Source of the DNA: a virus
DNA: 64,000 bases
Direction: 5' to 3' (one strand)
IMG/VR virus record: IMGVR_UViG_3300037359_000101
Location: 1 to 64,000 of that record
Shown in pieces: positions 4,226-54,434 of this stretch. Below the pieces are notes generated by a model. It had not been told where the DNA came from and made no database searches. It worked only from the letters and a program-made list of their open reading frames with translations. The position numbers were made by a program, and so were the translations under genes. Numbering within the stretch: the stretch's first letter is position 1; each line of letters opens with the position of its first letter.

Positions 4226-4570
4226 TCAATACAGGTCTTCACTGAATAGCGTTCCTTTGGTCCAGCTTTGGTTCCTGATTTGCCCGGCAGCCTCGGCTAT
4301 CTTCCAAGCCTTCTGGCGGCTACAAAACTTGCCATCTTGGTCGATGAAGCCCTGCTCGGCGCTCATCCATTCGCTGGGGCGTTTTCCATCTACCAGAATG
4401 ACTCCGCGCATTACGCTATCCCAATGTCGTGCGCCCGCGACTATCTGGCCGGTTGCTTTAGAGCGGATCGCCGCGCACACAACGAGCCGAACGAGGCGCT
4501 TCGGACAACCGCCGCCAGCCTTTCGGCTTGGGGACAGTTTCGGCGCGGTCAAAGCGTTCTTGGTTTTCAC
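4226..4570 (-). CDS. phage early protein with GFI...AW.IA module (114 aa)
   Basis: The core reads CAAIRSKATGQIVAGARHW, then a QGFIDQDGKF strand, SRQKAWKIAEAAGQI helix and a SEDLY tail. This pattern is a widespread phage family of unknown function. The same module appears three times inside the giant virion protein of this phage (see 44367-54434), an unusual link between an early and a late gene. Start: a GTG at 4570 whose GTGA overlaps the stop of the upstream nucleotide-metabolism gene. Function unknown; a small ligand-binding domain is a guess. Confidence 0.7.
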   Translation of the reverse strand: MKTKNALTAPKLSPSRKAGGGCPKRLVRLVVCAAIRSKATGQIVAGARHWDSVMRGVILVDGKRPSEWMSAEQGFIDQDGKFCSRQKAWKIAEAAGQIRNQSWTKGTLFSEDLY

Positions 4571-5460: not shown

Positions 5461-5487
5461 AACACGCGTGCCTCGTATAGACAACCG

Positions 5488-6447
5488 CTATTCGCGGATT
5501 TGTGACAGGAATTCGTCCACCGACAACAGCCGGGGCGACGGCACCGGATACTTGTCGTCATTCCACACCGCCCAGAACTTCATCCCGCTGGGCGTCTGGC
5601 TTAGCTTGGTCGTGATGTCGCGCTCGATGCCATCCGCCAGCGGGTTCGTCAGCGGCTTTCCCCCGCGCGCGGACCGGGTGAGACTATTACAGAGAACGTG
5701 ATACGGAGCAAATCCCGCTTGACGCAACCCCTGGTATTGTTCGGTCGTTTCAACGCTCGTCACCACGATGGGGTTCTTCAAGTCGTTGGCCCGGACGGCG
5801 CGCGACAACAAGCTCCTGATCCAGAATCCCGGCGTCCCAAACTCTTGTGGATTGACACCGAAAAGCGCCAGCCCATCCTTGCCGGCACTGCGAATGTGAA
5901 TCGTGAAAAGCGCCCGCGCGGGAGTCATCGGCGTGGTATCGTTGCCGTCGCCCCAAGCGCGCACCTCGCCCACAAACTGATTCAGCGCTCCCTTGTCCTG
6001 CACCGGGCCGAATGCCGTGGCGGCCATAGCGTAGATCGGATCATCGAATTCCAAAACCGTAGCCCCCAGTTGGGCGGCCAGCCAAGACTTGCCTACCCGA
6101 GAGTGGCCCGTAAAGAACAGGGTGGGGACGCCCCTCACCAGCACCGACGTTTTATGCACTGCTCCGCTAACCGGCTGTTGTTTTTGCGCGGGTTTCGGCA
6201 GCACATTGGCCTTGGTCAGCTTGGGCAACGGCGCGGGCTGCCCTTCCGGTATTGCCGCAGCGGCCCCCGCAACGAGCTTGTTCATGGCCGCGCGCTCTTC
6301 GGGCGGCACTTCGGCCCCGGTGATGTTCGGGTCGTTAAGCATCCCGCACAGGGCTCGCAAGGACGCGGTATCATTCCCCATCGCCCCCGGGTCCATCGGA
6401 CGCTTCAGCGCCGCCGGTTTCATGTCTAAAGTATTGGTCTCGCTCAT
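5488..6447 (-). CDS. P-loop protein resembling phage dNMP kinase
   Basis: 319 residues. A disordered Pro/Ala-rich N-terminus (1-100) precedes a P-loop GHSRVGKS, then the motif EFDDPIYAMAATAFG. Later come FGTPGFWIRSL and a strand NPIVVTSVETTEQYQGLRQAGF. This order (P-loop, DPIY..A..FG, FWI, ..TEQ..LR..G) resembles T4 gp1/T7-type deoxynucleoside monophosphate kinases, which convert dNMP to dNDP. The substrate cannot be read from sequence, and a packaging or recombination ATPase is an alternative. It ends 27 bp before the chosen start of the DUF1937 fusion gene. Confidence 0.6.
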   Translation of the reverse strand: MSETNTLDMKPAALKRPMDPGAMGNDTASLRALCGMLNDPNITGAEVPPEERAAMNKLVAGAAAAIPEGQPAPLPKLTKANVLPKPAQKQQPVSGAVHKTSVLVRGVPTLFFTGHSRVGKSWLAAQLGATVLEFDDPIYAMAATAFGPVQDKGALNQFVGEVRAWGDGNDTTPMTPARALFTIHIRSAGKDGLALFGVNPQEFGTPGFWIRSLLSRAVRANDLKNPIVVTSVETTEQYQGLRQAGFAPYHVLCNSLTRSARGGKPLTNPLADGIERDITTKLSQTPSGMKFWAVWNDDKYPVPSPRLLSVDEFLSQIRE

Positions 6448-6571
6448 ATATCAGTTTAGTTTTCGACGTTACAATTTCACTCTTGCAGGGTTTCGCCGGC
6501 AACTCGGTGGGCTGCTCCAACTCCAACAGAGACAGGAACGCACGCCGCCAAGCTGTCAGCAGGATCGTCAT
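6371..6571 (-). CDS. hypothetical protein (66 aa), overlapping
   Basis: ATG at 6571 overlaps the stop of the 195-residue gene (ATGA), giving MTILLTAWRRAFLSLLELEQP and a charged C-terminal half. Its last 77 bp overlap the start of the dNMP-kinase-like gene in another frame, more than usual here. The start coupling is good, the large overlap is a warning, and no family is recognised. Confidence 0.4.
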   Translation of the reverse strand: MTILLTAWRRAFLSLLELEQPTELPAKPCKSEIVTSKTKLIYERDQYFRHETGGAEASDGPGGDGE

Positions 6572-7155
6572 CGGGTGGCGTAGGTGGGAGAGATTTCGCT
6601 CGGGACGGACCCCAAGCGGCACCAGTGCAATTCGCCGTTGCTCCAGAAGAAGCTCGCCCGCAGCGCCGGGACGAAAAGCAGGTCAGCCGCGCCGATGTTC
6701 CCGATGACGAGGTTCTCCCGCGTGCCCAGTTCCTCGGCAGCGGCGTCCAAGAAAAGGTCGATCTGAGCGGCCCGGAGGTTCAGCCCTGCGATCAGCCGTT
6801 CGATCACTGGATTCGGATTCCCCGAGGCAGCTTGGAGACCGATGGCCGCTGAATACTTGCGCTGCACCCCCCGGCGCTTTTTCTCAGCCCGATGCTGCCA
6901 CTTGCCAATCTGCGCCAGGGTAAATCCCGGCATCTTGCGCGCCAGCTTTTCCGATGCGGGCTTCCGCTCAGCGGTGGAAATGAATTCCCGGCTCCGGGCA
7001 GTCATCAGCACTTTGCGCTCCCGGTTGGTCATCCGCCGGCCCTTCTGGCTGAGAAGGTCCATCGCCACACTCTCGGGCAGGTGGTCAGTATTGGTCTGAC
7101 GCAGTTGCCTGATCTCGATTTGTTCGTTGCTCAATTTGTTCTTTGCGTTTTTCAT
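6568..7155 (-). CDS. hypothetical basic protein (195 aa)
   Basis: Starts at an ATG (MKNAKNKLSNEQIEIRQLRQ). The N-terminal half is highly charged and helical and includes RMTNRERKVLMTARSREF and MPGFTLAQIGKWQHRAEKK, which could be a DNA-binding helix pair. The C-terminal half (AAEELGTRENLVIGN, FFWSNGELHWCRL) looks like a small alpha/beta domain. A longer frame to 7251 would overlap the coding region upstream and is rejected. No family recognised. Confidence 0.6.
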   Translation of the reverse strand: MKNAKNKLSNEQIEIRQLRQTNTDHLPESVAMDLLSQKGRRMTNRERKVLMTARSREFISTAERKPASEKLARKMPGFTLAQIGKWQHRAEKKRRGVQRKYSAAIGLQAASGNPNPVIERLIAGLNLRAAQIDLFLDAAAEELGTRENLVIGNIGAADLLFVPALRASFFWSNGELHWCRLGSVPSEISPTYATR

Positions 7156-18109: not shown

Positions 18110-18220
18110 ATGATTATCGTAGCATTAATCGGGGTGGCGCTGTTTACACACAGCCCGCATGTCTTTCTGGGGGCGTGTCTTGCGGCATTGTTCATGGGTG
18201 CCGTGGAGGGGAATAAGTGA
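18110..18220 (+). CDS. 36-residue membrane peptide
   Basis: MIIVALIGVALFTHSPHVFL, then GACLAALFMGAV and a charged end (EGNK). Two hydrophobic stretches or one long one predict membrane insertion. The stop overlaps the GTG of the recombinase (GTGA), so the two are probably translated together. Unknown role. Confidence 0.5.
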   Translation: MIIVALIGVALFTHSPHVFLGACLAALFMGAVEGNK

Positions 18221-18921
18221 ACGCCTACGGATACATCCGAGTAAGTGGCAAGGGCCAAGTGGACGGCGACGGACCCGAGCGCCAGAAGGACGCTATTCTT
18301 CGCTTCTGCCGGGCTCATGGCCTGGGCCAGCCAAGCCTGTTCAACGAGATGGCGGTCTCTGGCACGGTGGAGGCGATGGACCGGCCCGAGTTTGTTTCCA
18401 TGACGGATGCCATTAAGCGGCTCCGAAAAGTGCTCGGCGAGGACACCCCCGTCTGCATTGTGGTGGAACGCCAGGACCGAATAGCGCGGGACCTCATAGT
18501 CCAGGAGCTTCTGCTGGCGGAGTGCTCGAAGCTGAAGATTCCAGTTTACTCGGCGGACCAGAATTTGATGCAGGACTTGGCGGAGTCGGGAATGGACCCG
18601 ACACGGAAGATGCTCCGGCAGATTCTTGGAGTGGTGGCGGAGTGGGAAAAGTCCGTCCTGGTGATGAAGCTCCGCTCAGCCCGGGATCGAAAGCGGACTC
18701 AGACGGGACGCTGTGAAGGCCCGCTTCCGTTTGGGGCGACCGACGCGGAGCGCAACACGCAAGCGATTCTGCTCACACTGCACCACTCGGGCTGCTCGTA
18801 TGCGGAGATAGCCGAGAAGGCAAACGAGATGTCGATACGAAACCGGGGCGGACGGCATTGGACGCGGGGGGCCGTGTATCAGGCCGTGACTCAGCGGGGG
18901 GTTAAGACAATCTCGCGCTGA
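18217..18921 (+). CDS. serine recombinase (resolvase/invertase family)
   Basis: 234 residues. The N-terminal catalytic domain has YIRVSGKGQ (nucleophile Ser10) and the arginine-rich motif VVERQDRIARD, then the dimer/long helix (TRKMLRQILGVVAEWEKSVLVM). The C-terminal part (CSYAEIAEKANEMSIRNRGG, WTRGAVYQAVTQRG) is a short helix-turn-helix recombinase domain. It is near the size of small resolvases/invertases (180-200) and much smaller than large serine integrases. It could invert a tail gene, resolve multimers or integrate; no repeats obviously flanking it are visible. GTG start. Confidence 0.85.
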   Translation: MNAYGYIRVSGKGQVDGDGPERQKDAILRFCRAHGLGQPSLFNEMAVSGTVEAMDRPEFVSMTDAIKRLRKVLGEDTPVCIVVERQDRIARDLIVQELLLAECSKLKIPVYSADQNLMQDLAESGMDPTRKMLRQILGVVAEWEKSVLVMKLRSARDRKRTQTGRCEGPLPFGATDAERNTQAILLTLHHSGCSYAEIAEKANEMSIRNRGGRHWTRGAVYQAVTQRGVKTISR

Positions 18922-19037: not shown

Positions 19038-19360
19038 AAAAGGTCTTCGCCGCATATTCCCGGGAGAAAGTAGGGCTGGTTCGCGTCTGGATGGAGTCCT
19101 GGGAAAGACGGGGGTGGCGGCCTCAGCTTCTTTCGGTCAAGGAGATTCAGGGCGCGGGCTCAGTTCGCAAAGCGGCGGAGGACCGGGGCGGGGGTGTTTT
19201 GGCGGACCTTCTGATAATCAATTTTGGATTCTGGTCCCGGGACCGGGCTCCCCTTCGATCCACTCGGATCAACCGGGCGGGGTGGGAAAGCGCGGCCTTG
19301 GTTCGTTTTTCTCCGGGGGCTTCTGAGACCGAAATAAGGGAGTGTGGCCGATGCCTCTGA
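19034..19360 (+). CDS. hypothetical protein (108 aa)
   Basis: Basic alpha/beta-looking protein (MKKVFAAYSREKVGLVRVWM, QLLSVKEIQGAGSV, VLADLLIINFGFWSRDR). The order of strand, helix, strand suggests a Rossmann-like small domain, seen in some phage proteins that sense nucleotides or sugars. Overlaps terL by 10 bp. Not recognised. Confidence 0.55.
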   Translation: MKKVFAAYSREKVGLVRVWMESWERRGWRPQLLSVKEIQGAGSVRKAAEDRGGGVLADLLIINFGFWSRDRAPLRSTRINRAGWESAALVRFSPGASETEIRECGRCL

Positions 19361-21273
19361 GCAACCAGGAGAAAGCACTGGCGTCAGAAATCTCGGGCTT
19401 GTTGCACGCGGACAAGAAGCCGGAGGCGGCGCGCATAGTTGCGGACTTGTGCAAGATCAAGCTCTCAACGAAACAGGCGGGGGACCCGAGCCGGGCCGAC
19501 CCGCTGTTGCAGTCGTATCTCCACAATTTGCTGGAGGCGGACGGGCTGGTTGAGGCGGCGCAGTTGCTCTGGTCTCCCACCCAGTTCAACCCCGCTCCGC
19601 AGAGCGCGCAGGACGTGTGGAAGTTGTTTGACGAGTCCTGCACGGGGCTGATTATGGGCGGCGCGAAGCTGTCCAAGTCGTTTTCGATGGGCGTCCGCCT
19701 TTTCCTGGAGTGGGTGCGTGATCCAGAATACACCTCGATCCGAGTGCTCGGCCCCTCGGAGAACCATTTGCAGGAGAACTTGTTCTCGCACCTAGTATCG
19801 CTCCACCAGCACGCCACGCTTCCAATGCCGGGGGCGGTGGGCGACCTGTTCATCGGGCTCAACCGGCGGGATCAGACCTCTTCGATCCGGGGGGTTATCA
19901 TCCCGAAGGGGAACGTGAAAAAGGCGGGCCGGCTGCAAGGCGGCCACCGGCGTCCTCGAATGGCTCCCCATCCGATTTTTGGCCCGCTGTCCCGGCTGTT
20001 TATCTTCCTCGATGAGATCGAGAACATCCCTTCAGGAGTGTGGCAGGACATTGACAATGTTCTCTCGGAAATTGAAAAGGGCGGCCAGGGGTTCAAAATC
20101 TTCGGGGCCTACAATCCCACCAACCCCACTGATGAGGTGGGCAAGCGGGCGGAACCTCCCTTCGGATATGCGGACCTTGATGAGGACGTTCACTTTCGGT
20201 GGAAGTCAGCCCGTGGGTGGGACGTGCTCCGGCTTGATGGAGAGCGCTGTGAGAATGTCATCCAGGGGAAGATTGTTTACCCGGGACTTCAGACGCGCGA
20301 GGGGCTGGAGAAGATAGCGGAGAATGCTGGCGGCAGGAACGCTCCGGGCTACCGGACGATGGGCCGGGGAATGTATCCCAGCATGGGGATTGAGGCTACG
20401 GTTATTCCGCCTGGGTTGCTTAACAAGTTCCGGGGGGAATACATCTGGTATCAGGAGCCGCAGCCCGTGGGAGCAACAGATTTGGCGTTGGAGGGCGGCG
20501 ACGGCTGCATTCACACCTTGGGGGAGTGGGGCTTGGCCAGCGGCGTAAAGTATCCGCCTTCGCTGGAATTTCCCAAGGGTCAAGTAGTGATGTTCAGGGA
20601 CCCTCGGGGGCAGGTCGTTCCGCGCTGGGGGCTTCAAGCCAAGCAGCAGTTCACGCTACCGAAAGGGGACACCGTAGCGATGAAAGCTTCGGTGATGGAC
20701 ATGAACCGAAAGTCAGGAGTTCGCCCCGATTATTATGCCTGTGACCGGACGGGGCACGGCGCGGGGGTGGCGGACCTGATAAGGAATGAATGGTCCTCCA
20801 CGATCCACGATGTCAACTACTCTTCAGGGGCCAGTGACACCAAGATCATGCTGGAGGATTCAGACATCTGCACGAAGGCTTACGAGCGAATTTTTTCCGA
20901 ATTATGGTTTGCTCTCCGGCTGTGGGGTGAATTTGGGTATTTGCTGATCCATCCTTCGATGGATATGACGAAGTTGACGCAGCAACTCACCAACCGTCGG
21001 TTTCGGACCAAGGCCGGCAGAAAGTGCGTTGAATCGAAGACCGATTACAAATCCCGGGGATTTGAGTCTCCCGGCGAAGCGGACTCGCTTACGCTTTTGG
21101 TTCACGCGGCGCGCCGGGGAAGCGGCGTCATACCTTCAATGCGGGGAGTGGCGGTGGACGGCCCGGGCGACGAGGGGGACGATTGGAATCCGGCGATGTA
21201 TTCGGGAGGAGCCCGGATAGACCAGTCTAATCGGTCCGATTTTCTCGACACGGGAGGGCTCACGATTTTGTAA
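19351..21273 (+). CDS. terL: terminase large subunit
   Basis: 640 residues. The DNA-packaging motor and nuclease: it pumps DNA into the prohead and cuts it. The ATPase half has a Walker A-like MGGAKLSKSFS (about 102-112), Walker B LFIFLDEIENI (about 216-226) and the coupling motif FGAYNPTNP. The C-terminal RNase H-like nuclease half has ATDLALEGGDG, CDRTGHGAG and GEADSLTLL acidic positions. The ATG at 19351 is used; an upstream GTG frame start at 19342 would add three residues. Followed directly by two Cys-rich genes and the portal, as in many podovirus late operons. Confidence 0.93.
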   Translation: MPLSNQEKALASEISGLLHADKKPEAARIVADLCKIKLSTKQAGDPSRADPLLQSYLHNLLEADGLVEAAQLLWSPTQFNPAPQSAQDVWKLFDESCTGLIMGGAKLSKSFSMGVRLFLEWVRDPEYTSIRVLGPSENHLQENLFSHLVSLHQHATLPMPGAVGDLFIGLNRRDQTSSIRGVIIPKGNVKKAGRLQGGHRRPRMAPHPIFGPLSRLFIFLDEIENIPSGVWQDIDNVLSEIEKGGQGFKIFGAYNPTNPTDEVGKRAEPPFGYADLDEDVHFRWKSARGWDVLRLDGERCENVIQGKIVYPGLQTREGLEKIAENAGGRNAPGYRTMGRGMYPSMGIEATVIPPGLLNKFRGEYIWYQEPQPVGATDLALEGGDGCIHTLGEWGLASGVKYPPSLEFPKGQVVMFRDPRGQVVPRWGLQAKQQFTLPKGDTVAMKASVMDMNRKSGVRPDYYACDRTGHGAGVADLIRNEWSSTIHDVNYSSGASDTKIMLEDSDICTKAYERIFSELWFALRLWGEFGYLLIHPSMDMTKLTQQLTNRRFRTKAGRKCVESKTDYKSRGFESPGEADSLTLLVHAARRGSGVIPSMRGVAVDGPGDEGDDWNPAMYSGGARIDQSNRSDFLDTGGLTIL

Positions 21274-26870: not shown

Positions 26871-27603
26871 CCAAATCTTAATTGCGCTTCAGTTTTGGGA
26901 GGGGGATAAGGCCCGGGCGATGGAACTGGCTCGGTTTTTGGCGGACTTGGAACCGGTCAAGCAACAACAGGCCGATTTTTTGTTCGCGGCGCGTTTTGAT
27001 TGCGACCCGGACCCGGCGACCGTGGCCTATGTCTCTCGAAAGTTCAATGTTTACACGCTGAAGAGCAAGCGTCAAGCGATAGGTTGGCCTGATGGGTGCA
27101 ATGAGTTGTGGTTTTCGGTGATGGAGTGGGTTCAGTCGTTAGTGTTTTACAAGAAAATCCCCCAATACAAGGCCATTTTTACTTGCGAGGCTGACGGCGC
27201 GCCGATTATTCAGGATTGGGTCAACTGGTTGTCTCTGGAGTGGGACCGGGTGAACCGACCGAAGCCGGTTTGCATGGCCGGCGCTCTCATTCCGCCCATA
27301 CCCGGATGCACGGATCGTTGGCACATCAACGGAAACGCGCTGATGTCTGGAAACCCGAAGTTTTTGTATTGGATCGCCCGGAGAATCGGGGGATCGCGCC
27401 CGGGTTGTGGCTGGGACTACTGCCTTGCAGGGGATTTCCAGCGAATCGGGTGGGCCGATGTTCCCGGGATAAAGAGCATTTACAACACCCCCACCTTCAC
27501 GCCCGAGCAGTATGTGGAGATGATAAAAAATCAGTGGGTCTGGATTCACGGCGTCAAGGACACTTCTCTCATACGCATGGGAAGGGAGAAATTCAGAGTA
27601 TGA
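26863..27603 (+). CDS. glycosyltransferase-like protein (246 aa)
   Basis: Begins MANQILIALQFWEGDKARAM. Mid-region KAIFTCEADGAPIIQDWV carries an acidic DxD-like site (EAD), followed by GALIPPIPGCTDRWHINGNA and CGWDYCLAGDFQRIGWAD. The layout fits a small GT-A-fold transferase, though the family is not certain. It overlaps the previous gene by 8 bp and the next by an ATGA junction, so it is expressed with the fucose pathway. Confidence 0.55.
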   Translation: MANQILIALQFWEGDKARAMELARFLADLEPVKQQQADFLFAARFDCDPDPATVAYVSRKFNVYTLKSKRQAIGWPDGCNELWFSVMEWVQSLVFYKKIPQYKAIFTCEADGAPIIQDWVNWLSLEWDRVNRPKPVCMAGALIPPIPGCTDRWHINGNALMSGNPKFLYWIARRIGGSRPGCGWDYCLAGDFQRIGWADVPGIKSIYNTPTFTPEQYVEMIKNQWVWIHGVKDTSLIRMGREKFRV

Positions 27604-28529
27604 ACCGAGATTCTCGCATTTTTGTGGCCGGGCACCGGGGATTGGTGGGCAGTGCGCTTTGCCGGGTCCTAAAGGCTCAGGGGTTCACGGGGGTTATCAC
27701 AGTTTCCCACTCCGATGCGGACTTGGAGGACCCGGTCGCCACCGCTTGGCTGTTTTCCTCATACCAACCCGAGTATGTTTTTTTAAGTGCGGCGAAAGTG
27801 GGGGGCATCGTAGCGAATTCGACGACGCCGGTTGAATTCATGGCGCAGAACCTGCGAATTCAGTTGAACGTCCTCGAAAGTGCTTATCGGCAGGGCGTCA
27901 AGAAGCTGTTGTTCCTCGGGAGCGCGTGCGCGTATCCGAAACTTGCTGAGAATCCGATAAAGGAGAGCGCGCTGTTGACCGGGGCTCTGGAGCCGTCCAA
28001 CGAGTGCTACGCGCTGGCGAAGATCGCCGGAATCCGGCTGTGTGAAGCCTACCGGCGGCAGTATGGATGCGATTTCATCAGCGTGATGCCGACTAACCTC
28101 TACGGCATCGGCGATAATTACGACCCGGAGAATTCCCACGTCCTCCCAGGCATGATTCGCCGGCTGGACCAGTGTGTTCGGAATCGGGCAGACGTGGCCG
28201 TCATGTGGGGCTCTGGAAAGCCCGTCCGGGAATTCCTTTTCTCCGACGATCTCGCGCGCGCGTGCGTTCTGCTGATGCAGGAGTATCGCGGGGTAGGGTT
28301 GGTGAATGCGGGCTCGGGGGATTGGATCAAGCTCTCTGATCTTGCTACCCTGGCCGCTCAAGTGATCGGCTTTCGGGGCCGAATCGAGTGGGATGCAGGC
28401 CGGCCAGATGGGACTCCGATACGATACCTGGACAACTCGATCCTGCTCGACTTGGGGTGGCGGCCCGAGGTGGACTTGGCTGAGGGAATACGAATCGCAC
28501 ACGAAGACTTCAAATGCAGAAAGCGCTAA
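27600..28529 (+). CDS. fcl: GDP-L-fucose synthase
   Basis: 309 residues of the short-chain dehydrogenase (SDR) family. GHRGLVGSALC (about 9-19) is the NADPH-binding GxxGxxG. The GSACAYPK motif and YALAKIAGIRL (Tyr-x3-Lys) form the catalytic site, followed by PTNLYGIGDNYDPENSHVLP, a hallmark of this enzyme. It converts GDP-4-keto-6-deoxy-mannose to GDP-L-fucose by 3,5-epimerisation and reduction. Length is close to E. coli Fcl (about 320). Overlaps gmd by 16 bp. Confidence 0.9.
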   Translation: MNRDSRIFVAGHRGLVGSALCRVLKAQGFTGVITVSHSDADLEDPVATAWLFSSYQPEYVFLSAAKVGGIVANSTTPVEFMAQNLRIQLNVLESAYRQGVKKLLFLGSACAYPKLAENPIKESALLTGALEPSNECYALAKIAGIRLCEAYRRQYGCDFISVMPTNLYGIGDNYDPENSHVLPGMIRRLDQCVRNRADVAVMWGSGKPVREFLFSDDLARACVLLMQEYRGVGLVNAGSGDWIKLSDLATLAAQVIGFRGRIEWDAGRPDGTPIRYLDNSILLDLGWRPEVDLAEGIRIAHEDFKCRKR

Positions 28530-29458
28530 TACTCGGAATCACAGGCCAAGACGGCGCGTATCTTTCCAAGCTCTTGCTTGAGAAAGGATACGAGGTTCAC
28601 GGAATGGTGCGCCGGTCGAGCGTGGACAATACGCCCCGCCTACGCGACATCATGGACCAGATAGACCTCCACTACGGGGACCTCTCTGACAGCGCCTCTA
28701 TCATGGGAATACTGGACGCGTGCGCCCCCGATGAAGTCTATAACTTGGCGGCTATGAGTGACGTGGGGGTGAGTTTCAAGACCCCCATTTACTCGGCGGA
28801 CGTTACCGGCACGGGGACGATTCGTGTTCTGGAGGCGGTCCGGGCGGTGTGCGGGGTCAACACGAGGTTTTATCAGGCGTCGTCCAGCGAGATGTTCGGA
28901 AGCTCGCCGCCCCCGCAGAGCGAGGCTGCCTCTTTCCATCCGCGCAGTCCCTACGGGTGCGCCAAGGTCTTTTCGTTTCACGCGGTTGTGAATTATCGCG
29001 AGGCATACGGTATGCACGCCAGCAACGGGGTGCTCTTCAACCACGAGTCCCCCCTTCGGGGCACTAACTTTGTGACGCGGAAGATTGCGAAAGCTGTGGC
29101 CCGCATTACGATGGGGCTACAGAAGGAGCTTCGCTTGGGTAATCTCGAAGCCCGACGAGATTGGGGATTCGCGGGCGATTACGTGGAGGCGATGTGGCGC
29201 ATGTTGCAGCAGCGCTCGCCGGGAGATTATGTGGTGGCGACGGGCGAGGCGCATTCAGTCCGGGAATTTGTGGAAGAGGCGTTTACACACGTCAACCTAG
29301 ACTATCGCAATTTCGTCAAGACGGACCCGAGTTTGTTCAGGCCCTCGGAGGTTGAGTATTTGCTGGGGGACTCCAGCAAGGCGAAGCGAGTGCTGGGCTG
29401 GGAACCGAAAGTCAAGTTTCAAGAGTTGGTGAAAATGATGGTTGACGCAGAACTATGA
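28514..29458 (+). CDS. gmd: GDP-mannose 4,6-dehydratase
   Basis: 314 residues. GITGQDGAYLSKLLLEKGY is the cofactor-binding motif at the N-terminus, with the family signature RRSSVDNTPRL. SSSEMFGSSPPPQSE and SPYGCAKVF (Tyr-x3-Lys) give the active site, and FNHESPLRGTNFVTRKI is the family's substrate-loop sequence. It makes GDP-4-keto-6-deoxy-mannose from GDP-mannose, the substrate of the fcl product. Slightly shorter than bacterial Gmd (about 345-370). GDP-mannose itself must come from the host, as no manC is seen. Confidence 0.92.
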   Translation: MQKALILGITGQDGAYLSKLLLEKGYEVHGMVRRSSVDNTPRLRDIMDQIDLHYGDLSDSASIMGILDACAPDEVYNLAAMSDVGVSFKTPIYSADVTGTGTIRVLEAVRAVCGVNTRFYQASSSEMFGSSPPPQSEAASFHPRSPYGCAKVFSFHAVVNYREAYGMHASNGVLFNHESPLRGTNFVTRKIAKAVARITMGLQKELRLGNLEARRDWGFAGDYVEAMWRMLQQRSPGDYVVATGEAHSVREFVEEAFTHVNLDYRNFVKTDPSLFRPSEVEYLLGDSSKAKRVLGWEPKVKFQELVKMMVDAEL

Positions 29459-44366: not shown

Positions 44367-47300
44367 ATGGCTGACATCAACACCAGCGACGCGACCGCGC
44401 AAGCACCGGCGCAAGCGCCCACCTTCACGGATGCGGCAGGCAATCCAGTCCAGTTCACTCCCGAGCAACAAGCGGAGGCACTGCAAAATCTCTCTCCTGC
44501 ACCCACCACAGCCGCTACAGCCGCCCCGCCCGAGGCACCGCAAGAGCTACTGAACCCCTACAAGGGAATGCAGTTGACCGACGAAGCTGGCAAACCGGCA
44601 GCGCTTACGCCCGCGCAGCAGGCAGAAGCGCGCAAGAATGCGGGAGTTGTCGATCCACTGCTCGACCTGTCGGCGGATGACATGTTCGCCCTTGCTCGAA
44701 ACCCGGACAACAATTTTAGCATCCTCCAGGCATTCCGAGCCCGGCAAAAGGAAGTGGCACAGGACCCGGGAGCGACCCGGCGAGTTGCCGACGCCTGGGC
44801 AAAATACAAAGCCAGCACGGGGTTGGGTGATCTTCCCTCTGTTAGCGACATGGCCAACAATGTCTGGGGATTCGTCAGCAACGCTGCCAAGTATGCCGGC
44901 GGACTCGTCCAGTCGTATCCGGCTCGAATCGGGGCTGCCTTGGGGGGAACAGACGGGGAGATGACCCCAGCGGAAGCGGAAGCGCTGCAAACTCAGGCAG
45001 AACGCGCGGCGGCCACGGGAACGGCGCTCACGGGGTTAGGGCAACAAGTGGGCCGTCTGTTCGAGCCTAACGCAGGCTCCCCCAGTATTATACCCAGCCC
45101 GGTAATCAGCGCCGGAATGAACCGCGTTGCTGGCCTCTTTGGAATTCCCGAAGAAAAGCCTAGCGCGCCACCGAACCCTGTTGAAACCCTTTTTCGGGAC
45201 TCCACCAAGGCAGACCAACTCCAGAAAGCCACTGAAGGCAAACTCGGCGGCCCCATCGGTGATCTTCCTCCAGAAACCCTCGCAGCAATGGCCAAAGCAG
45301 GCTATCCCCTGCGGCCCGACGTTGTCGCCAGCCTCGCGCAGGGCGATCCACTTTCGCTCTACCTCATGGGCAAAGCGTTCGGCGCTGCCGGGGAGGCCAT
45401 TCCCACGGTCATCCCCAAAGCGGCGCTAAACTCCGCCGGGGAGGCGGTCGCTACTGGTGCCGGGGGGACTATCAGCGCGTTGTCGAAAGGCGCGCAGGCA
45501 GTAATCCCGAAAGTGACCCCGTTTCTTCCGCCGGCTTTCGCCGCAAAGGGCGCGGCGACGGGTGCGGTGAGCGTCGGTCCGATAACCGGAGCCGCTATCG
45601 GCTGGGGCGCGGGCAAAGCAGCGGCCAAGCAGTTGACTTCGCTGGCCCCCACCCTGGAAAAACTGGAACTGGCGGGGCAGCAAATCGCGGGCAAGCTTCC
45701 GGTGTCAAGTTCCTATACTCAGCTTGCCAAAGACATTTTCCAGTCGGTTCCAGCGGCAGCGTATGAGGTTGGCAAAGGCGCGCTTTTTGACGTGGCGATG
45801 GGCGAGTCGGCAGATACTCCCGAGGAGGTTAATGGAGTCGGAATCGGAACTGCCTTTGGGATTCTCGGCGGCGGAATGGTAGCCGGCCAGCACGTATTGA
45901 GCGGTCAGCTAATCGCACCAAGAGCCTACGGGTCCCGGGTGACTGTTCCGTCAAACGGATTTTATCCCGCGCTGGATGCCGTGCATCAAGCGGCGGCGAG
46001 CGTGGCACCAGATGGAGTGAAAACGCGTGTAAACGCTATTCGGGCTTTCGTCAAAGGCGCGCTCCCGGACTACGATTTCATTTACGCCGGCCCCAAACCC
46101 GCTGAGGGTCCCGACCCGTTGGTTTCGGCGTTGACCAAGATGGGAGTCCCGGAAGAGCAAGCGAACACCTGGGCTGCTCAAGACGGTATCACCAGCCGAG
46201 TTCTCGGCGACCACAAAGTCATCATCGCTCGGGACGTGGACGCCGCCCCGCACGAAGCTGGGCATGGCATTGAAGACGTTCTGGGCGAGTCGATCATGCG
46301 CGGCTTCGACCGAGCGATACAGGCTGACCCGCAGTATGCTAACAACTGGGACCGCTTGGGCCAGAGCTATGCCGATGCCTTGGGCGGAAGACCTGACGAA
46401 TCGTGGCAGGACACAATCCTGCGGAAGTCTGGGTGGGGTGCCCGGGAGGCTCAAGAGAAGCTTGGTCAGCCCGCAGTTGGCGAAGGTCCCTCCGATCCGG
46501 CAGCCGCCCAATCCAAATGGGCTCAAGCGCTCGACGCCGCTGGCGGCGACCCCACCGAAGCCTACAAAGCGGTCTTGACCCCCGGGGAGCAGAGTGAAGT
46601 GGCAAACCGCTACATCTCCCGGGAAGTGGCTGCTGAAAACTTCGATGCGATGTTCAAGCATACCGGCGGATTTACGTCGGAGGACAATTCGATACCCGCA
46701 CGCATGGCGCGGGTAGTCGGTGGAATGGTGTCCTACCTCGGCGGAGAACCGCTGGCCGGACGCACCTCGGAATACCGCAAGTTTCCGCTCAGCTACGACG
46801 TTACCAAAGCCCAGGCCGAAGGAGTCGAGGGCGTCTTGGGAAACAAGCCGATGATCGAACCACCCACCCCGAGGGGTCTGAAAAACTTCGGGCCGCCGGT
46901 GACGCAGCAGCAAAAAGACGATGCCCAGAAGTCCGCGCAGGCGATGGCCGCAGAGGCAAGCCCGACACCGCTCGAACCCGGAGCCAGCAGCCCGCGTGAA
47001 AGTATTGCAACTCTTGCTGAGGCAATGGCCGGGGGCAGCCCAGTCCAAATCACAGGCCGCGCAGCCGCTCCGGGCGATCCTAGCTCGTCCATCGCGTCCA
47101 ACCGCACGGTCCGCCGGGCGATTATCGAAGTCTGGCGGCGGATGCCTGACTCGGCTAAGTCGCTGGTGCAGAAACTTTTCTTCCCCACCCGCATAATCAA
47201 GACCAAAGGCGGCACCTATCAGGCCGAGGGCTGGTCTCCAGAAGTGCTCGCCGCGAATGCTCAGAAGAGCGCAGAATTCCTCAGTCAGCTATCTGAGAAG

Positions 47301-50300
47301 GGTTCGCCGATTGCCTTGCCCGCCGGAGTTGAGCTAGACCCGGCAACCAAGTCTTTCACCCCCGACAGTTGGAAGCTGATTTTCGACCAGTTGGACAAAT
47401 TTGCTGCCAATCAGCGCGCGGGCAGAACGGGTGCCGGTGGGCCGCTGGTGGTCCCGAAAGAAGTCACCGAGTCCGGCGGCTATGCCCCTCCCGTCAGGGG
47501 AGAAGTCTCGCCGGTGCCACAGGACATGGCGGACTTCCTGAACTACCTCTACAATTTCAAGCTGCCGGACACCGCGCTGATTCGCAAAGGCACGCCGGCC
47601 AATATCCAAGCGCAGCGGGTCAGCGAGGCAACAATGCCCGGGCGAGTCAGCGAGCCGGTTACTCCCAGAGGAGTGTTTGGCGAATACGGGAAGACTGAAG
47701 CGACCCGAGCCAAACAGCGCGCTGCCGCTGAACTGTTGGGAATCTCGGGCACTCCAGTCGCCGAAGTCAATCCTTTTCGGAAGACCGTGGAACAAGCCGC
47801 AGCGGCAACTGGAATCCCGGCTCCGTCTTTGTTCGAGGCGATCCAGCATCTTAATGTTGAGGGCATCAAGAGTGTTGAACACGCGCCCGAACAAGGAACG
47901 CCGAACATCCCGGCGAACACGGCGACGCTGACCGCCGGCTTTCAACCGCCCCGTGTAAACGACGAACCTGCGGAACATTTAATTCTCCCCGAGGGAATTA
48001 AAGGATCGACTGTTTCCAAACCACAGCCACTCTATCATATCGCTTCGGCAGAAGAGGGCAACCCGTGGGTCCGCCGGTCCGCCGATCCTACGCGCTCAAG
48101 CGCTACCGACAACTCGGGACGCACGCTTCTGGTCCAGGTATCCAGCGACTTGATAAACCCCGAGGCGCTGGCCGGCAACAAGGACCAAGCCACCCAGTAT
48201 TACGATAAGCTCTACTCTGGCGCTCGCCCCGGTTACGCGCGGATGCAGGACTTCTGGGAAATCCCGCAGTGGATTGGCTTTGCCAGCCACTTCGTTCCAG
48301 ACGCGGATGTCTATGTCGTGCGCGACGTGGCGACCGCAAAGAAATTCCTGAACGAGGCCGGCTATGGCCGCGTCGCCTTCTCCGCACTAGACACCAACAA
48401 GGCGCTAATCCGCGATCTCGTAACGGACTACCCGGGCAAGGTGGACATCGGCGGGTATGTGGACCCGAAGACTTTCTCCGACCTGCCGAACGTCAAATGG
48501 CATGATTCGATGGAGTCCTTGGCTAACGACATGGGCCTCCCATATAAAAATGGGGTTGACTATCGGCACTTCCAAGGTTCCGACGTTATCCCGCGCCTCA
48601 CTATGTCTCAAGGGTGCCGTCATAAATGCGCCTTCTGTTCGGTCTCGAAAAAGGTGACGGAGACTCCCTCAGCTACCATCGTCCAACAGGCCGACCAAAT
48701 TGCCAAGCTTGGCTCGAAGCTCGTCTATCTCAATGACAAGACTTTTGGCCAAGCGAGCAACTACAAGCAGCTTTCTGACCTTAACCAGCAAATCCTAGCG
48801 CAGAATCCCGACTTCAAGGGGTTCATCGTCCAGACGACGGCGGCTCAGTTGAAGACAATGCCTGCCGACTGGCTGGCGAAGTCGGGCATCAAGTTCGTGG
48901 AGCTTGGCATTGAAAGCTATAACGACCCGATCTTGAAGGCGATGCACAAGCCCGCGACGACTTCGATGATCGACCAGGTGACTCAGAAGTTGCGTGACAA
49001 TCACATCGCGCTGATCCCGAACATCATCATCGGGTATCCGGGCGAGACGCCCGAGACCTACAAGGCGACCCTCGATTACCTCAAGTCGAATAAGGACATC
49101 ATCAGCCACGCCAACATCTACAACTTGGCACTCTACAAGGACGCCGAGTTAGGCAAACAGATCGCGACCGGTGCGGACGCGGACTTCAACGAGAATGTCC
49201 TGGAGAAGTCTTTCCACACCAACCCGGAGGTGCATCGCCAGTTCGCCGGAGACGTTTACGGTTTGGCCCAGTCGATGCTCGAAGGTTCGCCGGAGAGCGC
49301 GCAGTTCCAAGCACCGCGCGAGGGCGTGGAAAAGCTGGACGACATGCCAGACTCGATGGAAAAGATTTTCCCGAAGAGTCTGCCCAATTTTCAGTTCCAG
49401 CCGAACAAGGACCCGCGCGCCGTTCGCACCGCCGCCGTAAGAGACCCGGAGACGGGCCGCATTTTTGAGGGCGCGATGCACTATAACGCGCTCACGAAGG
49501 CGATGAACGAGGGCGGCATCGCGGGGCCGGACTTGGTGAAGCTGGATCACGGCTTCCTGACTAATGAAAACGAATACCTGACACGTCAAGAGGCGTGGGA
49601 GCGCGCAAAGGAACTTAATCAGCTTGGAAAAGGCTCCTTGGAGCGCGACGGAAAACAGTATGCCGGGTTCGATAGCGGGTTGGTTTCCGAGGACCTGCCC
49701 AAACCCGCGCCGGCAGAAGTAGTTCCCGAGGTGCAAAAGCTCCTCGACAATGTTTACAACTTGACCCCGGAACAGTGGTCCGCGATGGTGAAATCGCCAG
49801 AAGCGCGGGGCGGGTCAAGTTACGCTCACCGCACCGGAATGGCCGCCAAATCGACTGCCGATCTCGCGGCACTCCGCGAGGCGCATGGGGTCACGTCTGA
49901 ACTTGGCCGGCAGTCACTCCAAAATAAAGACCCGATGGGGGCGATGAATTTCGGAGTCAAAGCCCAAGCTTTGAGAGAGGCATACGAGGCGGCCACGGGG
50001 AAGACGATGGATGGCACCCAAGACGTTAGTGGGACGATCCGCGCGCTGCATGATCCCAACTACCAGCCGCCCGTGACCGGACAATACCAAGTGGCCCCCG
50101 AAGTCCGCGAGCTTGTGGACCGAATGAACAGCACTTCTCCCGAAGAGTGGTCCGACTGGGCGCACGCAGGCGGTGGCATGTCCTTCGCCGCCCACACCGC
50201 CGGCACCAAAGCTCGCTCGGCGGCAGACCTCGATGCCCTCCGCACAGCATACGCGATCCACAGCCGGATTGCCGAGAAGGCGCTGGCCGCTGATGATATT

Positions 50301-53300
50301 GACTTGGCCTCAGTCGCCGGCAACAAAGCACAAGCAGCCAACGAGGCGATAATGGGCGCGACTGGCCGGGATATAAAAGGACGTGATGTCACTTCGACGC
50401 TTCGCCAAGTTCACGACAAGAATTTTCAACCCCCGCTATCCGCAACCACGGACCGGCAAGCAAGCGCGCAATTCCAAGCCCAGACTGACGCCGGAAAAAA
50501 ACTTGAGGAGGATGGGCATACCTTCACGGAGCACAACTACTCCGGGGGACACCTGATCGTCGTTTCCAAAGGCAAAAAGCAAATAGGTGTGATCGAAAGC
50601 TCTCCGGTGGACGATACCACTGCTCGGGTTATGGGGGTGAAGGTAACTCCCAGCGCGCAAGGCAAGGGGATTGCTGAGACTCTTTACCGGGAACTGGCTA
50701 CCCGGCTTCAGGCAGAAGGCAAGACCTCGCTCACGGGAGACGTAATACACCCGGCTCCCCTGAAGATACGAGAGAAACTCTTCGGCGCAGCCACTCCTGC
50801 GGGAAGAGAATTGACCACCGCCTATGGGGGCTACGCGCAGCCCGTAACGTCCCCCATCAACCCCGAGGCACAGTTTTCTGCGCCGAAAAGGGATTACGAG
50901 GGCGAGCAAGTTACTCACGCCGCCGTGCGGTTGCCCAGCGGAAGGGTGTTCAAGGCCCGCGCTCCCCTTGGCGGGAGCGACCGGCGAAACGCAGTTCACG
51001 GTTCCGCGTTCCTCCGGGCCTCGGAGTCTGGAGATGATACCTCTAGTTGGGAAGAGGGGTTTGTCACCACCAAGCGGCCTTTCGTGGACCGGGCCACGGG
51101 CTACCGGATTGCCATCAAGTCTGGGCAATTTTCCAGAGAGGAATACGACCGGGCAGAAAGGGAAAAAATGGGTCCCCGTGGGGAGTCGCAGGGGCTAGGC
51201 GACAATCCCGACTTAGAGACGCTGTCCGCACGCCGGGCGGTCCAGATGCGAAGAGACGCAATCGCGCGGGGTATCTCGCTCGACTCACAGGCGCAGGCCC
51301 CGAAGACCTACATCATCCGCCACGGCAGCACGTCAATGAACGCGGATGATCCCGCGAAGGACAAGATTCGGGGGTTTGTCAATGTTCCCCTCTCCGAGGA
51401 TGGGAAGAAAGAGGCTCAGCAAACTGCCGACCAACTCAAGTCCTCGGGAATCACTACCTTGGTGACTTCCGACCTGAAACGGGCTCGGCAGACCGCTGAC
51501 GCAATCGCGAAGACAACGGGAGCGACCGTGGTAGAGAATCCCGGCTTCCGACCGTGGCACTTGGGGCCAACTATCGAGGGCAAGCCGACTAAAGAGATGT
51601 TGCCGGTCATCGCCGGCTACACCGAGAAACCGGATAAAGTTCCCCCCGGCGGTGAGTCCTTCAACAATTTCAAGGACCGCTTCCTCGGGGCTTTTCACGA
51701 TACCCAAGAAAAGTATCCAGACGAGAATGTCGGCATCGTCACCCACTACCGGGGCTCGAAGCTCATGGACGCATGGCGGGACACCGGCACAGACAACGAC
51801 ACGATTAACCCAGAACTTTTCGAGAAGTATTCGCCCGACACGAAGCCGGGCAGCTTCGACGTGGTGGACAAGGAAGGCGCTGAGATCAAACCCGAAAAGG
51901 AAGGTTTCCTGGGCCGAGTCCGCCGAGAGATTGGCGAGATGGCGGGGACGGTTGCCGGAATCGAGCCGGGTATTCAATTCCAGCCGAGCGCAAATCCTCG
52001 GGCTATAAAATGGCCTGCGGTCCGCTATGAAGACGACAGGGGACACGTATGGGAATATGCCGCTCCCCGACACGCTGAAGCCGAAAAAAAACTCGTGGAG
52101 GCCCTAGGGTATACCCCCCACTACAACCGGGTAGAAGACGGATTTGTTACAAACTCCGGTGATTTTCTTGATCGAGAGGCCGCCTATCGCCGAGCTATCG
52201 AGACCAAACAGTATTCTCCCAGGACCCGAGATCGCGGAAGCCTGATCGCCGAGGAGACCTCTGGGATGGCTCCCCGGGAGGACGTTCAATTCACGCCGAA
52301 GAGAGCGACAGACAAAGACTGGAAACTCAAGCTTGGAGCTAACGGTTTCTCGAAGGCGTGGATCACCCCCGAGGGGAAGCCAATCCAACTGGGGGGCACT
52401 TTTCACGACGTATGGCTAAACCAGAATCCAGACGTAAAGAAGCAACACGGCATCCCGGAGGACGTGACCGAGGAAACTCCGGTGCGTCAAGCTGCCCTGA
52501 AAGCGGGATTTGCCCGGATCAATTACTCCGTAAACAATGGCGGCCTGATTGTCGAAGCGCGGAGCAAGGACTGGCCAAAGCTCGCGCCGGCAGTCCGTCA
52601 GTTTGTTCAGGCGAATGCGGGCAAGATCGACAACATGACGGTCGATCTTCTCGACAACAAAGCCGACCGCTCGATTGACTCCGACTTCGCGCCGCTTTTC
52701 CAGTTCTCCGACAAGGAGAAAATGAACCACCTGCCACTGATCTCGCCGCCGAGTCCGACGACTGAAATGTCTCCGCAGGCCAGCAGCGCACAGTATCAGG
52801 CCCCCAAGCTTTTTCCTGAGCCCGCGTTCGACGAGGAGCTTGAAAAGATTCGCTCTGGTGCCACAGGCGGCCAGTCGTTCACTCCCGCTGGCGCGGTGTG
52901 GAAAGCGCCAGCCGACTCGAAGATTGACTTGGTGTCGCTGGCCTCGAAGAACATTCCACTTGGAGACCTGGACCGCGAGACGGTATCGAAGGCGCTCAAG
53001 AATTACGCGGACTTGCTGGACGAGCCGAATGTCGTGGCTGGCCTCTATGCTTTTTCTAAAGACGGCAAGCCGATGGTTTCGGTGGACATCAATGCCGCCG
53101 TCTCGAAGAAACACCGGGACAACACCCTCGCCTTTGCCAAGGCAAACGATCAAGTGGCAATCTGGGACGTGGAGCACAACAAGGAGGTGCCGGCGGGTGG
53201 AAAGGGCGACACTCGGCTCCAGACCCCCGGTGAGATTCTCGACGCGATAAATGATCTGTCCAAAGGCAACCCGGTGGACGTGGACAATATCATCAAGGAG

Positions 53301-54434
53301 AACCGGACCACAGGCCGACCCGAGGAGATGGGATTGCCGGGCATCGGTGGAAAGCGCGCGTTGTCGCCCTCCCAGATGTCCAACATGACCAAGGCGGACA
53401 TTGCGGAATACTATCCCGAGTCCGTGATTCCCCGGGCTCGCACCGACGCCGTCCCTTCGGAGATTACCAAATCGCCGCTTTACCGGGATTCTGACAACCC
53501 CGCTCAGTCTTTCGGGCGAAAGCTGGCGGAGTTTGCTAAGGAGTGGCGGGACCACCCGTCGTTCCAATCGGGAGCCCGGTGGTATTCCGAGTTTACGCCG
53601 AAGCTCAAGGAAATTTTCAAGGACGACGCACCCATCATGGCCGAATTACTGGCCGGGACTTCTCCGCAGCAGCCGCCCACGCAGAACTACGCGATGGCGC
53701 TTGACGCGCTCCAAGGATTCAAACAGGGGCGCTTCGCCAAACAGATTGCCAAGTTTGAAGAGGGCCTGGAGAAGTTGAAAGACGGCTCCTGGAAGCGCTG
53801 GCTGGACCGTGAAATCAAGGGCGAAAAGGTAAAGAACGCGCCCGAGACTCCGACTGCGGAAACCTTCGTCAACCACTGGGTTGCCAAGCACAATCTACTG
53901 CCGCGCCAGTCAAACGGGAAGCGCTACTCGATCTCCTCGGACGCTGTGCTCAAGATTCTCGCCCGCAAATGGATGGGCGAGACCGCCGGTCTGAAGACCC
54001 AGAACTTCGTGAAGAACCTTCTCGGCGTTGGCAAAGAAGCCACGATTGACCTTTGGGCGGACAGAACCATGAGGCGCATTGGCTACGCGGGCCACAAAGA
54101 ACGCTGGCGGATTCTCCCCAAGAATGCGACGGGGGTGTCGGATGAAGACTTCCTTTTCAGCCAAAAAGCCTTCCGCGCCGCCGCCGAAGAGCTTGGGATG
54201 GAGCCTTCGGAACTTCAGGGCGCGCTCTGGTTCGCCGAAAAGCAGTTGTGGGCGGACAACGGATGGGGCAGACTTGACTTAGGCGACTTCCGAAAGGAGA
54301 TTGCCAAGACGGACATGTTGAAAAAAGGCATCGAACAACGAACGCGGCTGGCGAAGGGCGAGGCAAAAGCCAAAACCCAGGAGCAGCCTGAGCTAATCAT
54401 GCCAACCGTTGAGCCCCGAAACTTACGACCATGA
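44367..54434 (+). CDS. giant polyvalent virion protein with zincin, radical-SAM, GNAT and phosphatase domains (3355 aa)
   Basis: One uninterrupted 10-kb frame, the position of T7 gp16-like ejection proteins. In order: disordered and hydrophobic N-terminus (1-560), zincin-like HEAGH (629-633), a region with fold unknown (700-1190), a B12-like strand region and radical-SAM domain with C1417-x3-C1421-x2-C1424 (about 1330-1640). Then repeat module A1 (1685-1776), a tandem pair (about 1789-1901 and 1908-2027), GNAT acetyltransferase with QGKG (2098), module A2 (2182-2278), histidine phosphatase with RHG (2318-2320), module A3 (2547-2631) and a C-terminal helical DUF7178-like domain (about 3035-3355). 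It is likely injected into the host. Enzyme activities are predictions. Confidence 0.85.
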   Translation: MADINTSDATAQAPAQAPTFTDAAGNPVQFTPEQQAEALQNLSPAPTTAATAAPPEAPQELLNPYKGMQLTDEAGKPAALTPAQQAEARKNAGVVDPLLDLSADDMFALARNPDNNFSILQAFRARQKEVAQDPGATRRVADAWAKYKASTGLGDLPSVSDMANNVWGFVSNAAKYAGGLVQSYPARIGAALGGTDGEMTPAEAEALQTQAERAAATGTALTGLGQQVGRLFEPNAGSPSIIPSPVISAGMNRVAGLFGIPEEKPSAPPNPVETLFRDSTKADQLQKATEGKLGGPIGDLPPETLAAMAKAGYPLRPDVVASLAQGDPLSLYLMGKAFGAAGEAIPTVIPKAALNSAGEAVATGAGGTISALSKGAQAVIPKVTPFLPPAFAAKGAATGAVSVGPITGAAIGWGAGKAAAKQLTSLAPTLEKLELAGQQIAGKLPVSSSYTQLAKDIFQSVPAAAYEVGKGALFDVAMGESADTPEEVNGVGIGTAFGILGGGMVAGQHVLSGQLIAPRAYGSRVTVPSNGFYPALDAVHQAAASVAPDGVKTRVNAIRAFVKGALPDYDFIYAGPKPAEGPDPLVSALTKMGVPEEQANTWAAQDGITSRVLGDHKVIIARDVDAAPHEAGHGIEDVLGESIMRGFDRAIQADPQYANNWDRLGQSYADALGGRPDESWQDTILRKSGWGAREAQEKLGQPAVGEGPSDPAAAQSKWAQALDAAGGDPTEAYKAVLTPGEQSEVANRYISREVAAENFDAMFKHTGGFTSEDNSIPARMARVVGGMVSYLGGEPLAGRTSEYRKFPLSYDVTKAQAEGVEGVLGNKPMIEPPTPRGLKNFGPPVTQQQKDDAQKSAQAMAAEASPTPLEPGASSPRESIATLAEAMAGGSPVQITGRAAAPGDPSSSIASNRTVRRAIIEVWRRMPDSAKSLVQKLFFPTRIIKTKGGTYQAEGWSPEVLAANAQKSAEFLSQLSEKGSPIALPAGVELDPATKSFTPDSWKLIFDQLDKFAANQRAGRTGAGGPLVVPKEVTESGGYAPPVRGEVSPVPQDMADFLNYLYNFKLPDTALIRKGTPANIQAQRVSEATMPGRVSEPVTPRGVFGEYGKTEATRAKQRAAAELLGISGTPVAEVNPFRKTVEQAAAATGIPAPSLFEAIQHLNVEGIKSVEHAPEQGTPNIPANTATLTAGFQPPRVNDEPAEHLILPEGIKGSTVSKPQPLYHIASAEEGNPWVRRSADPTRSSATDNSGRTLLVQVSSDLINPEALAGNKDQATQYYDKLYSGARPGYARMQDFWEIPQWIGFASHFVPDADVYVVRDVATAKKFLNEAGYGRVAFSALDTNKALIRDLVTDYPGKVDIGGYVDPKTFSDLPNVKWHDSMESLANDMGLPYKNGVDYRHFQGSDVIPRLTMSQGCRHKCAFCSVSKKVTETPSATIVQQADQIAKLGSKLVYLNDKTFGQASNYKQLSDLNQQILAQNPDFKGFIVQTTAAQLKTMPADWLAKSGIKFVELGIESYNDPILKAMHKPATTSMIDQVTQKLRDNHIALIPNIIIGYPGETPETYKATLDYLKSNKDIISHANIYNLALYKDAELGKQIATGADADFNENVLEKSFHTNPEVHRQFAGDVYGLAQSMLEGSPESAQFQAPREGVEKLDDMPDSMEKIFPKSLPNFQFQPNKDPRAVRTAAVRDPETGRIFEGAMHYNALTKAMNEGGIAGPDLVKLDHGFLTNENEYLTRQEAWERAKELNQLGKGSLERDGKQYAGFDSGLVSEDLPKPAPAEVVPEVQKLLDNVYNLTPEQWSAMVKSPEARGGSSYAHRTGMAAKSTADLAALREAHGVTSELGRQSLQNKDPMGAMNFGVKAQALREAYEAATGKTMDGTQDVSGTIRALHDPNYQPPVTGQYQVAPEVRELVDRMNSTSPEEWSDWAHAGGGMSFAAHTAGTKARSAADLDALRTAYAIHSRIAEKALAADDIDLASVAGNKAQAANEAIMGATGRDIKGRDVTSTLRQVHDKNFQPPLSATTDRQASAQFQAQTDAGKKLEEDGHTFTEHNYSGGHLIVVSKGKKQIGVIESSPVDDTTARVMGVKVTPSAQGKGIAETLYRELATRLQAEGKTSLTGDVIHPAPLKIREKLFGAATPAGRELTTAYGGYAQPVTSPINPEAQFSAPKRDYEGEQVTHAAVRLPSGRVFKARAPLGGSDRRNAVHGSAFLRASESGDDTSSWEEGFVTTKRPFVDRATGYRIAIKSGQFSREEYDRAEREKMGPRGESQGLGDNPDLETLSARRAVQMRRDAIARGISLDSQAQAPKTYIIRHGSTSMNADDPAKDKIRGFVNVPLSEDGKKEAQQTADQLKSSGITTLVTSDLKRARQTADAIAKTTGATVVENPGFRPWHLGPTIEGKPTKEMLPVIAGYTEKPDKVPPGGESFNNFKDRFLGAFHDTQEKYPDENVGIVTHYRGSKLMDAWRDTGTDNDTINPELFEKYSPDTKPGSFDVVDKEGAEIKPEKEGFLGRVRREIGEMAGTVAGIEPGIQFQPSANPRAIKWPAVRYEDDRGHVWEYAAPRHAEAEKKLVEALGYTPHYNRVEDGFVTNSGDFLDREAAYRRAIETKQYSPRTRDRGSLIAEETSGMAPREDVQFTPKRATDKDWKLKLGANGFSKAWITPEGKPIQLGGTFHDVWLNQNPDVKKQHGIPEDVTEETPVRQAALKAGFARINYSVNNGGLIVEARSKDWPKLAPAVRQFVQANAGKIDNMTVDLLDNKADRSIDSDFAPLFQFSDKEKMNHLPLISPPSPTTEMSPQASSAQYQAPKLFPEPAFDEELEKIRSGATGGQSFTPAGAVWKAPADSKIDLVSLASKNIPLGDLDRETVSKALKNYADLLDEPNVVAGLYAFSKDGKPMVSVDINAAVSKKHRDNTLAFAKANDQVAIWDVEHNKEVPAGGKGDTRLQTPGEILDAINDLSKGNPVDVDNIIKENRTTGRPEEMGLPGIGGKRALSPSQMSNMTKADIAEYYPESVIPRARTDAVPSEITKSPLYRDSDNPAQSFGRKLAEFAKEWRDHPSFQSGARWYSEFTPKLKEIFKDDAPIMAELLAGTSPQQPPTQNYAMALDALQGFKQGRFAKQIAKFEEGLEKLKDGSWKRWLDREIKGEKVKNAPETPTAETFVNHWVAKHNLLPRQSNGKRYSISSDAVLKILARKWMGETAGLKTQNFVKNLLGVGKEATIDLWADRTMRRIGYAGHKERWRILPKNATGVSDEDFLFSQKAFRAAAEELGMEPSELQGALWFAEKQLWADNGWGRLDLGDFRKEIAKTDMLKKGIEQRTRLAKGEAKAKTQEQPELIMPTVEPRNLRP

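Follow-up and report, generated by a model that had tools for sequence, protein, structure and literature searches.

What does an apparently complete radical-SAM enzyme do inside a phage protein of 3,355 amino acids, and does it enter the host together with the phage DNA? We address this question for a stretch of 64,000 nucleotides from an uncultured virus (IMG/VR record IMGVR_UViG_3300037359_000101, positions 1 to 64,000), referred to below as the window. The giant open frame and the features recognised within it are collected in Table 1.

Table 1. Features of the giant protein gene (positions in the window; aa, residues of the giant protein)
Feature	Residues (aa)	Position (nt)	Strand	Basis
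Giant multi-domain open reading frame	3,355 aa	44367..54434	+	Open frame from ATG to stop; Pfam matches to unrelated families in a single chain
Radical-SAM module	1211-1641	47997..49289	+	Conserved unit in 64 IMG/VR loci, 31-75% identity
B12-binding-like Rossmann part	~1253-1388	48123..48530	+	Strand/helix alternation in the model, Foldseek, invariance
Radical-SAM core	1413-1572	48603..49082	+	PF04055, E=3.5e-13
CxxxCxxC, expected [4Fe-4S] ligands	C1417, C1421, C1424	48615..48638	+	56/56 aligned family members
HEAGH zincin-type motif	629-633	46251..46265	+	Motif position in the open frame
phrog_839-like domain	1679-1777	49401..49697	+	E=3.1e-16
GNAT acetyltransferase domain	2049-2121	50511..50729	+	PF00583, E=2.9e-6
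Histidine phosphatase domain	2315-2461	51309..51749	+	PF00300, E=1.6e-28
DUF7178 domain, Ogg2-like glycosylase/lyase fold (putative)		53550..54254	+	PF23802, E=2.6e-8; local profile coordinates
QFQA, directly after the radical-SAM module	1646	49302..49313	+	One of nine Q[FY][QST][AP] copies
Q[FY][QST][AP] copies between domains		44451, 49302, 49392, 50469, 50871, 51975, 52209, 52287, 52791		

A radical-SAM module within the giant protein

The preliminary description had recognised a radical-SAM domain at 48000-49330, preceded by a B12-binding-like region, and had quoted two strand motifs, GIESYNDPILKAMHK and NIIIGYPGETPETYK. Both motifs are present in the open frame, the span lies close to the exact limits of the module, and the domain is borne out by the agreement of the Pfam match, the AlphaFold2 model and the Foldseek comparison. 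The match to Pfam Radical_SAM reaches 50.5 bits at a cut-off of 29.5, far above chance, and residues 1417 to 1424 read C-R-H-K-C-A-F-C. A model of residues 1211-1641, calculated by AlphaFold2 with 25 relatives in the alignment, has the radical-SAM fold at a pLDDT of 92.0 and a pTM of 0.89; an earlier model from 6 sequences was poor (pLDDT 65.7) and was discarded. In a Foldseek comparison with the PDB, AprD4 was the best match (E=8.7e-17, TM 0.62, full length), and TsrM, MtaB, CysS, MgmA, MiaB, TokK and OxsB were also matched over the full length. The upstream B12-binding-like region is included in these end-to-end matches (AprD4, TsrM, MtaB), and a sequence profile of the N-terminal domain found no match to any solved structure in the PDB. 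Nearly identical module boundaries follow from the stand-alone homologues, which are about 400 aa long. As modelled, the module is a complete radical-SAM enzyme, composed of a Rossmann-like domain of the B12-binding type and a radical-SAM barrel.

Conservation and phage family

Profile scans of IMG/VR revealed 64 loci with the module, all of which have CxxxCxxC. The three cysteines, whose loss in relatives had been looked for, are kept in each of the 56 distinct family sequences, as are S1339, GGY1362-1364, D1457, T1459, QTT1489-1491, E1512, E1516, KP1528-1529, N1552 and E1560. Because no cysteine beyond CxxxCxxC is invariant in these sequences, only one cluster is expected. Five pairs of sequences with unsaturated dS gave dN/dS values of 0.04-0.19 (two more pairs were saturated at synonymous sites), and the module is under purifying selection. 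Together, the predicted fold, the invariant cluster ligands and the purifying selection give the picture of an active-looking enzyme. A chance motif or a domain that has lost its function is ruled out by the Pfam score, the AlphaFold2 model, the conservation and the dN/dS values, and a degenerate one-off fusion by the 64 loci.

The same fusion recurs in related phages: about 38 distinct members lie within giant open frames of 1,100-4,600 aa, and some 16 others are separate genes encoding roughly 370-440 aa (562 in one case). Close relatives share about two-thirds identity over residues 1211-1642, and the rest of the giant is barely shared except for GNAT. The cargo of the giants is shuffled and includes GNAT, ART-PolyVal, NUDIX and HExxH zincins; in the window protein itself, phrog_839-like sequence occurs in two stretches. 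In a tree with moderate fork support and an arbitrary root, fused and stand-alone forms are nearly separate, with two non-fused rows amid the fused branch (L022, whose open frame is truncated at the contig end, and L053). Most simply read, a phage gene was recruited into giant proteins once, and their cargo was shuffled afterwards.

How far does the family reach? The module is absent from 100 random viral loci (876 kb). Cultured phages have no relatives of it beyond distant generic ones, nor was a cultured-phage relative found for the N-terminal 1,194 aa of the giant, and a phage collection and a viral structure library contained remote B12-type radical-SAM proteins only. A scan of genome contigs returned a single distant, generic B12 radical-SAM protein; it used narrow patterns from three near relatives and so leaves room for a bacterial reservoir. 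We conclude with high confidence, as for the fold and its conservation, that the module represents a previously undescribed phage family, present in dozens of uncultured phages either fused or as a separate gene. Directly 3′ of one stand-alone module gene (L068) lies a gene for a small radical-SAM-like protein of 176 aa (CNLDCSFCC) that is unrelated to the module.

The DUF7178 companion

The most frequent companion of the module is DUF7178: 20 of the 38 giants have it, in each case C-terminal to the module, and it occurs in the fetched flanks of 9 of the 16 stand-alone module genes. The open frames of DUF7178 (5964-6584) and module overlap in L064 and are about 200 bases apart in L062; DUF7178 is also found at 8359-9021 of L033, whose stand-alone module (396 aa) lies at 5117-6304. 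A profile built from 18 DUF7178 sequences finds the archaeal N-glycosylase/DNA lyase Ogg2 (3fhf, E=2.3e-6). In the next match, 3knt, which we take to be a mutant of Ogg2 in the catalytic lysine, the aligned Lys of 3fhf is replaced by Gln. The columns of Lys and Asp do not vary across the 18 sequences (motif positions 3210 and 3228 of the window protein). DUF7178 thus resembles Ogg2 in the profile match and in these two columns and is set apart from it as a phage family whose activity is predicted only; we regard it as a putative Ogg2-like DNA glycosylase/lyase. Some actinophage records annotate the DUF7178 gene as a glycosylase. This assignment would provide a testable function for a Pfam domain of unknown function.

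Whether the two domains work together is a different matter, and it comes close to an even prospect that they co-occur merely because both are common in such phages, with no function in common. DUF7178 is widespread, occurring in cyanopodoviruses, Roseobacter phage SIO1 (gp9) and actinophages; 20 of 24 loci from a separate DUF7178 scan are without the module, and 18 of the 38 module-bearing giants have no DUF7178 in the same open frame. One DUF7178 profile (A4) proved too diverse to be used in a contig scan. However, mere coincidence fits less well with the constant C-terminal place of DUF7178 in the giants that have it, with its adjacent or overlapping position in L062 and L064, and with its absence from the 100 random viral loci.

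Gene position and proposed delivery

The second part of our question concerns the place where the giant acts. In the window, a block of genes on the same strand extends from a terminase-like open frame (19342-21273) to the giant gene. This terminase was called from Walker-like motifs only, and the structural genes were recognised by motif and order; the terminase and capsid genes of the window had no database match, and a search of the window record for portal and tail families, also without a match, was uninformative, as its controls were equally silent. On the contigs L013 and L020 a terminase lies upstream of the giant on the same strand, and in L031 a tail protein (phrog_376, E=1e-202) and an endolysin-like gene lie just upstream of it. 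Podoviruses keep internal virion proteins at this genomic place. Large chains of unrelated enzymatic domains, termed polyvalent proteins, occur in phages and conjugative elements (Iyer et al. 2017, PMC5512222); in phages, they usually lie close to late genes, and their entry along with the DNA has been proposed (PMC5512222). From the gene order and the resemblance to this class, we infer, with moderate confidence, that the giant is packaged in the virion and ejected into the host.

It is imaginable, yet in our view unlikely, that the giant is made late and acts in the producing cell, either in assembly or by modifying progeny DNA or virion proteins before packaging, so that nothing is ejected. 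The stand-alone members, which lie among ordinary short phage genes, would agree with such a role, since they imply a function without delivery. However, the strong likeness to polyvalent proteins, the tail and endolysin-like genes of L031 and the precedent of phage N4, whose virion-packaged RNA polymerase acts on entry (cited in PMC5512222), argue for ejection. The module does not need ejection to work, as some phages encode it by a gene of its own.

Some other genes in these surroundings deserve mention. Nucleotide-sugar epimerase genes (27216-29458; PF01370, E=2.5e-59; phrog_540, E=3.7e-81) lie within the late-gene block of the window, and the gene of a protein with a resolvase N-terminal domain (18217-18921; PF00239, E=2.7e-21) adjoins the terminase-like gene. 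On the minus strand, at 4567-5484, a dATP/dGTP diphosphohydrolase N-terminal domain is fused to DUF1937. Downstream in L011, gene +7 (494 aa) encodes a RecA-like protein, apparently with an intein.

Short motifs recur between the domains of the giants. The window protein has nine Q[FY][QST][AP] tetrapeptides at an expectation of 0.31, a number seen in 0 of 2000 shuffles, with the pattern chosen post hoc. Patterns chosen in the same way are FM[AP][EKR], a separator with five copies in L025 and six in L028, and LQ[MT]G, with four copies in L012. In L028, FM[AP][EKR] is found on both sides of the module (1452 and 1886; module 1457-1880). These repeated tetrapeptides may be processing sites of a polyprotein.

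Proposed mechanism and target

In our model, the giant protein would be packaged, enter the host together with the DNA and refold there; its own zincin domain might also cleave it at the motifs repeated between the domains. With SAM and a [4Fe-4S] cluster supplied by the host, the module would then generate a 5′-deoxyadenosyl radical and modify some target during the first minutes of infection. Delivery presents a difficulty, as an Fe-S enzyme could traverse the tail tube only unfolded and would afterwards need to reload its cluster. Taken as a whole, an active-looking radical-SAM enzyme that travels as polyvalent cargo, is delivered with DNA and modifies an early target is the reading we consider probable.

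The preliminary description had suggested that host RNA, protein or a cofactor would be modified on entry. DUF7178 is the only contextual hint on the target, and if it points anywhere, it points to DNA. We therefore weakly favor a nucleic acid as the target, most likely a DNA base on which the module would act jointly with the DUF7178 glycosylase, as a tentative proposal that is more doubtful than not; because DUF7178 and the module often occur apart, the support is weak and we treat a DNA target as a lead. Distinctly unlikely, though consistent with the model, is its boldest form, in which the injected B12-type radical-SAM family and the Ogg2-like DUF7178 together subject DNA bases to a new radical chemistry as the phage enters, either protecting phage DNA or disabling host DNA. 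A known phage pathway links radical-SAM chemistry to DNA bases via 5hmdU. Thymidine hypermodification of this type is unsupported here, as the 20 records searched contained neither thymidylate synthase nor HMUDK domains.

Instead, the module might resemble MiaB/MtaB or RimO in function and modify RNA or protein, retuning the host tRNA or ribosome. Similarity in the core is indeed detectable: MtaB, MiaB and RimO rank among the closest matches by structure and by sequence, and the MiaB/RimO model TIGR00089 matches with E=2e-17. However, this match has 63 bits and stays far under the cut-off of 251, the cysteines of an auxiliary cluster are missing, and the stand-alone forms stop at the module end with no TRAM-like extension, all of which makes such a role improbable. 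Production or alteration of a small molecule or nucleotide for signalling or counter-defence, in the manner of AprD4 or CysS, is very doubtful: the best structural match, AprD4, is a small-molecule radical-SAM dehydratase, but this likeness is a generic fold similarity at 15% identity, and no recurrent biosynthetic neighbours were found near the stand-alone genes.

Known injected phage effectors include ADP-ribosyltransferases, kinases, peptidases and nucleic-acid enzymes. If the module is injected, an Fe-S-dependent radical enzyme would extend the chemistry of the first minutes of infection by a new class, and the question arises how such an enzyme survives the passage through the phage tail. 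The question can be tested now, because the family is large, its active site is conserved and, at about 400 aa, its stand-alone members are amenable to purification and assay.

Comparison with known systems

Among the known enzymes, the module belongs to the radical SAM superfamily by its CxxxCxxC in 56 of 56 sequences and by a TIM-barrel core above the Pfam cut-off. With AprD4, TsrM, CysS, MgmA and PhpK it shares CxxxCxxC and, over the whole length, a Rossmann-like N-terminal domain followed by the barrel; it differs from them by an identity of only 12-15% and has a signature of its own (WExPxW, FSxLD, GGY, NDKTFGQ and GFxxQTTA). The whole-length structural match to TsrM, CysS, TokK, OxsB and AprD4 includes their B12-binding-like Rossmann domain, and S1339 and GG1362-1363 are invariant in this putative cobalamin-binding-like part. 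AprD4 has the B12-type fold but is not known to bind cobalamin. The module scores far below every NCBIfam cut-off, including that of the PhpK P-methyltransferase model TIGR04479 (72 bits versus 600).

The giant is comparable to the virion RNA polymerase of N4 in its very large size and in packaging and action on entry, known for N4 and proposed here; the enzyme is unrelated. Its resemblance to polyvalent proteins (PMC5512222) is strong, as Radical_SAM, His_Phos, GNAT and DUF7178 are joined in one chain, and the zincin-type motif, GNAT and ART-PolyVal, all catalogued in that class, occur in the window protein or its relatives. The Pfam ART-PolyVal domain accompanies the same module in L013 and L014, and relatives with the module also carry NUDIX and GNAT. 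HExxH is present in 28 of the 38 giants, compared with 2.7 expected from shuffles, an excess that fits the zincin theme of PMC5512222. The preliminary description knew of no radical-SAM domain as a usual component of virion proteins. The main text of the founding paper (PMC5512222) has zero mentions of "radical SAM", "B12" or "glycosylase", a later jumbo-phage survey of the same school does not contain "radical", and no report of a radical-SAM/polyvalent fusion was found in the main texts of the open literature. By this resemblance, the giant is most readily described as a phage polyvalent protein with the module as one of its cargo domains, and radical SAM is a new type of cargo within the known polyvalent system.
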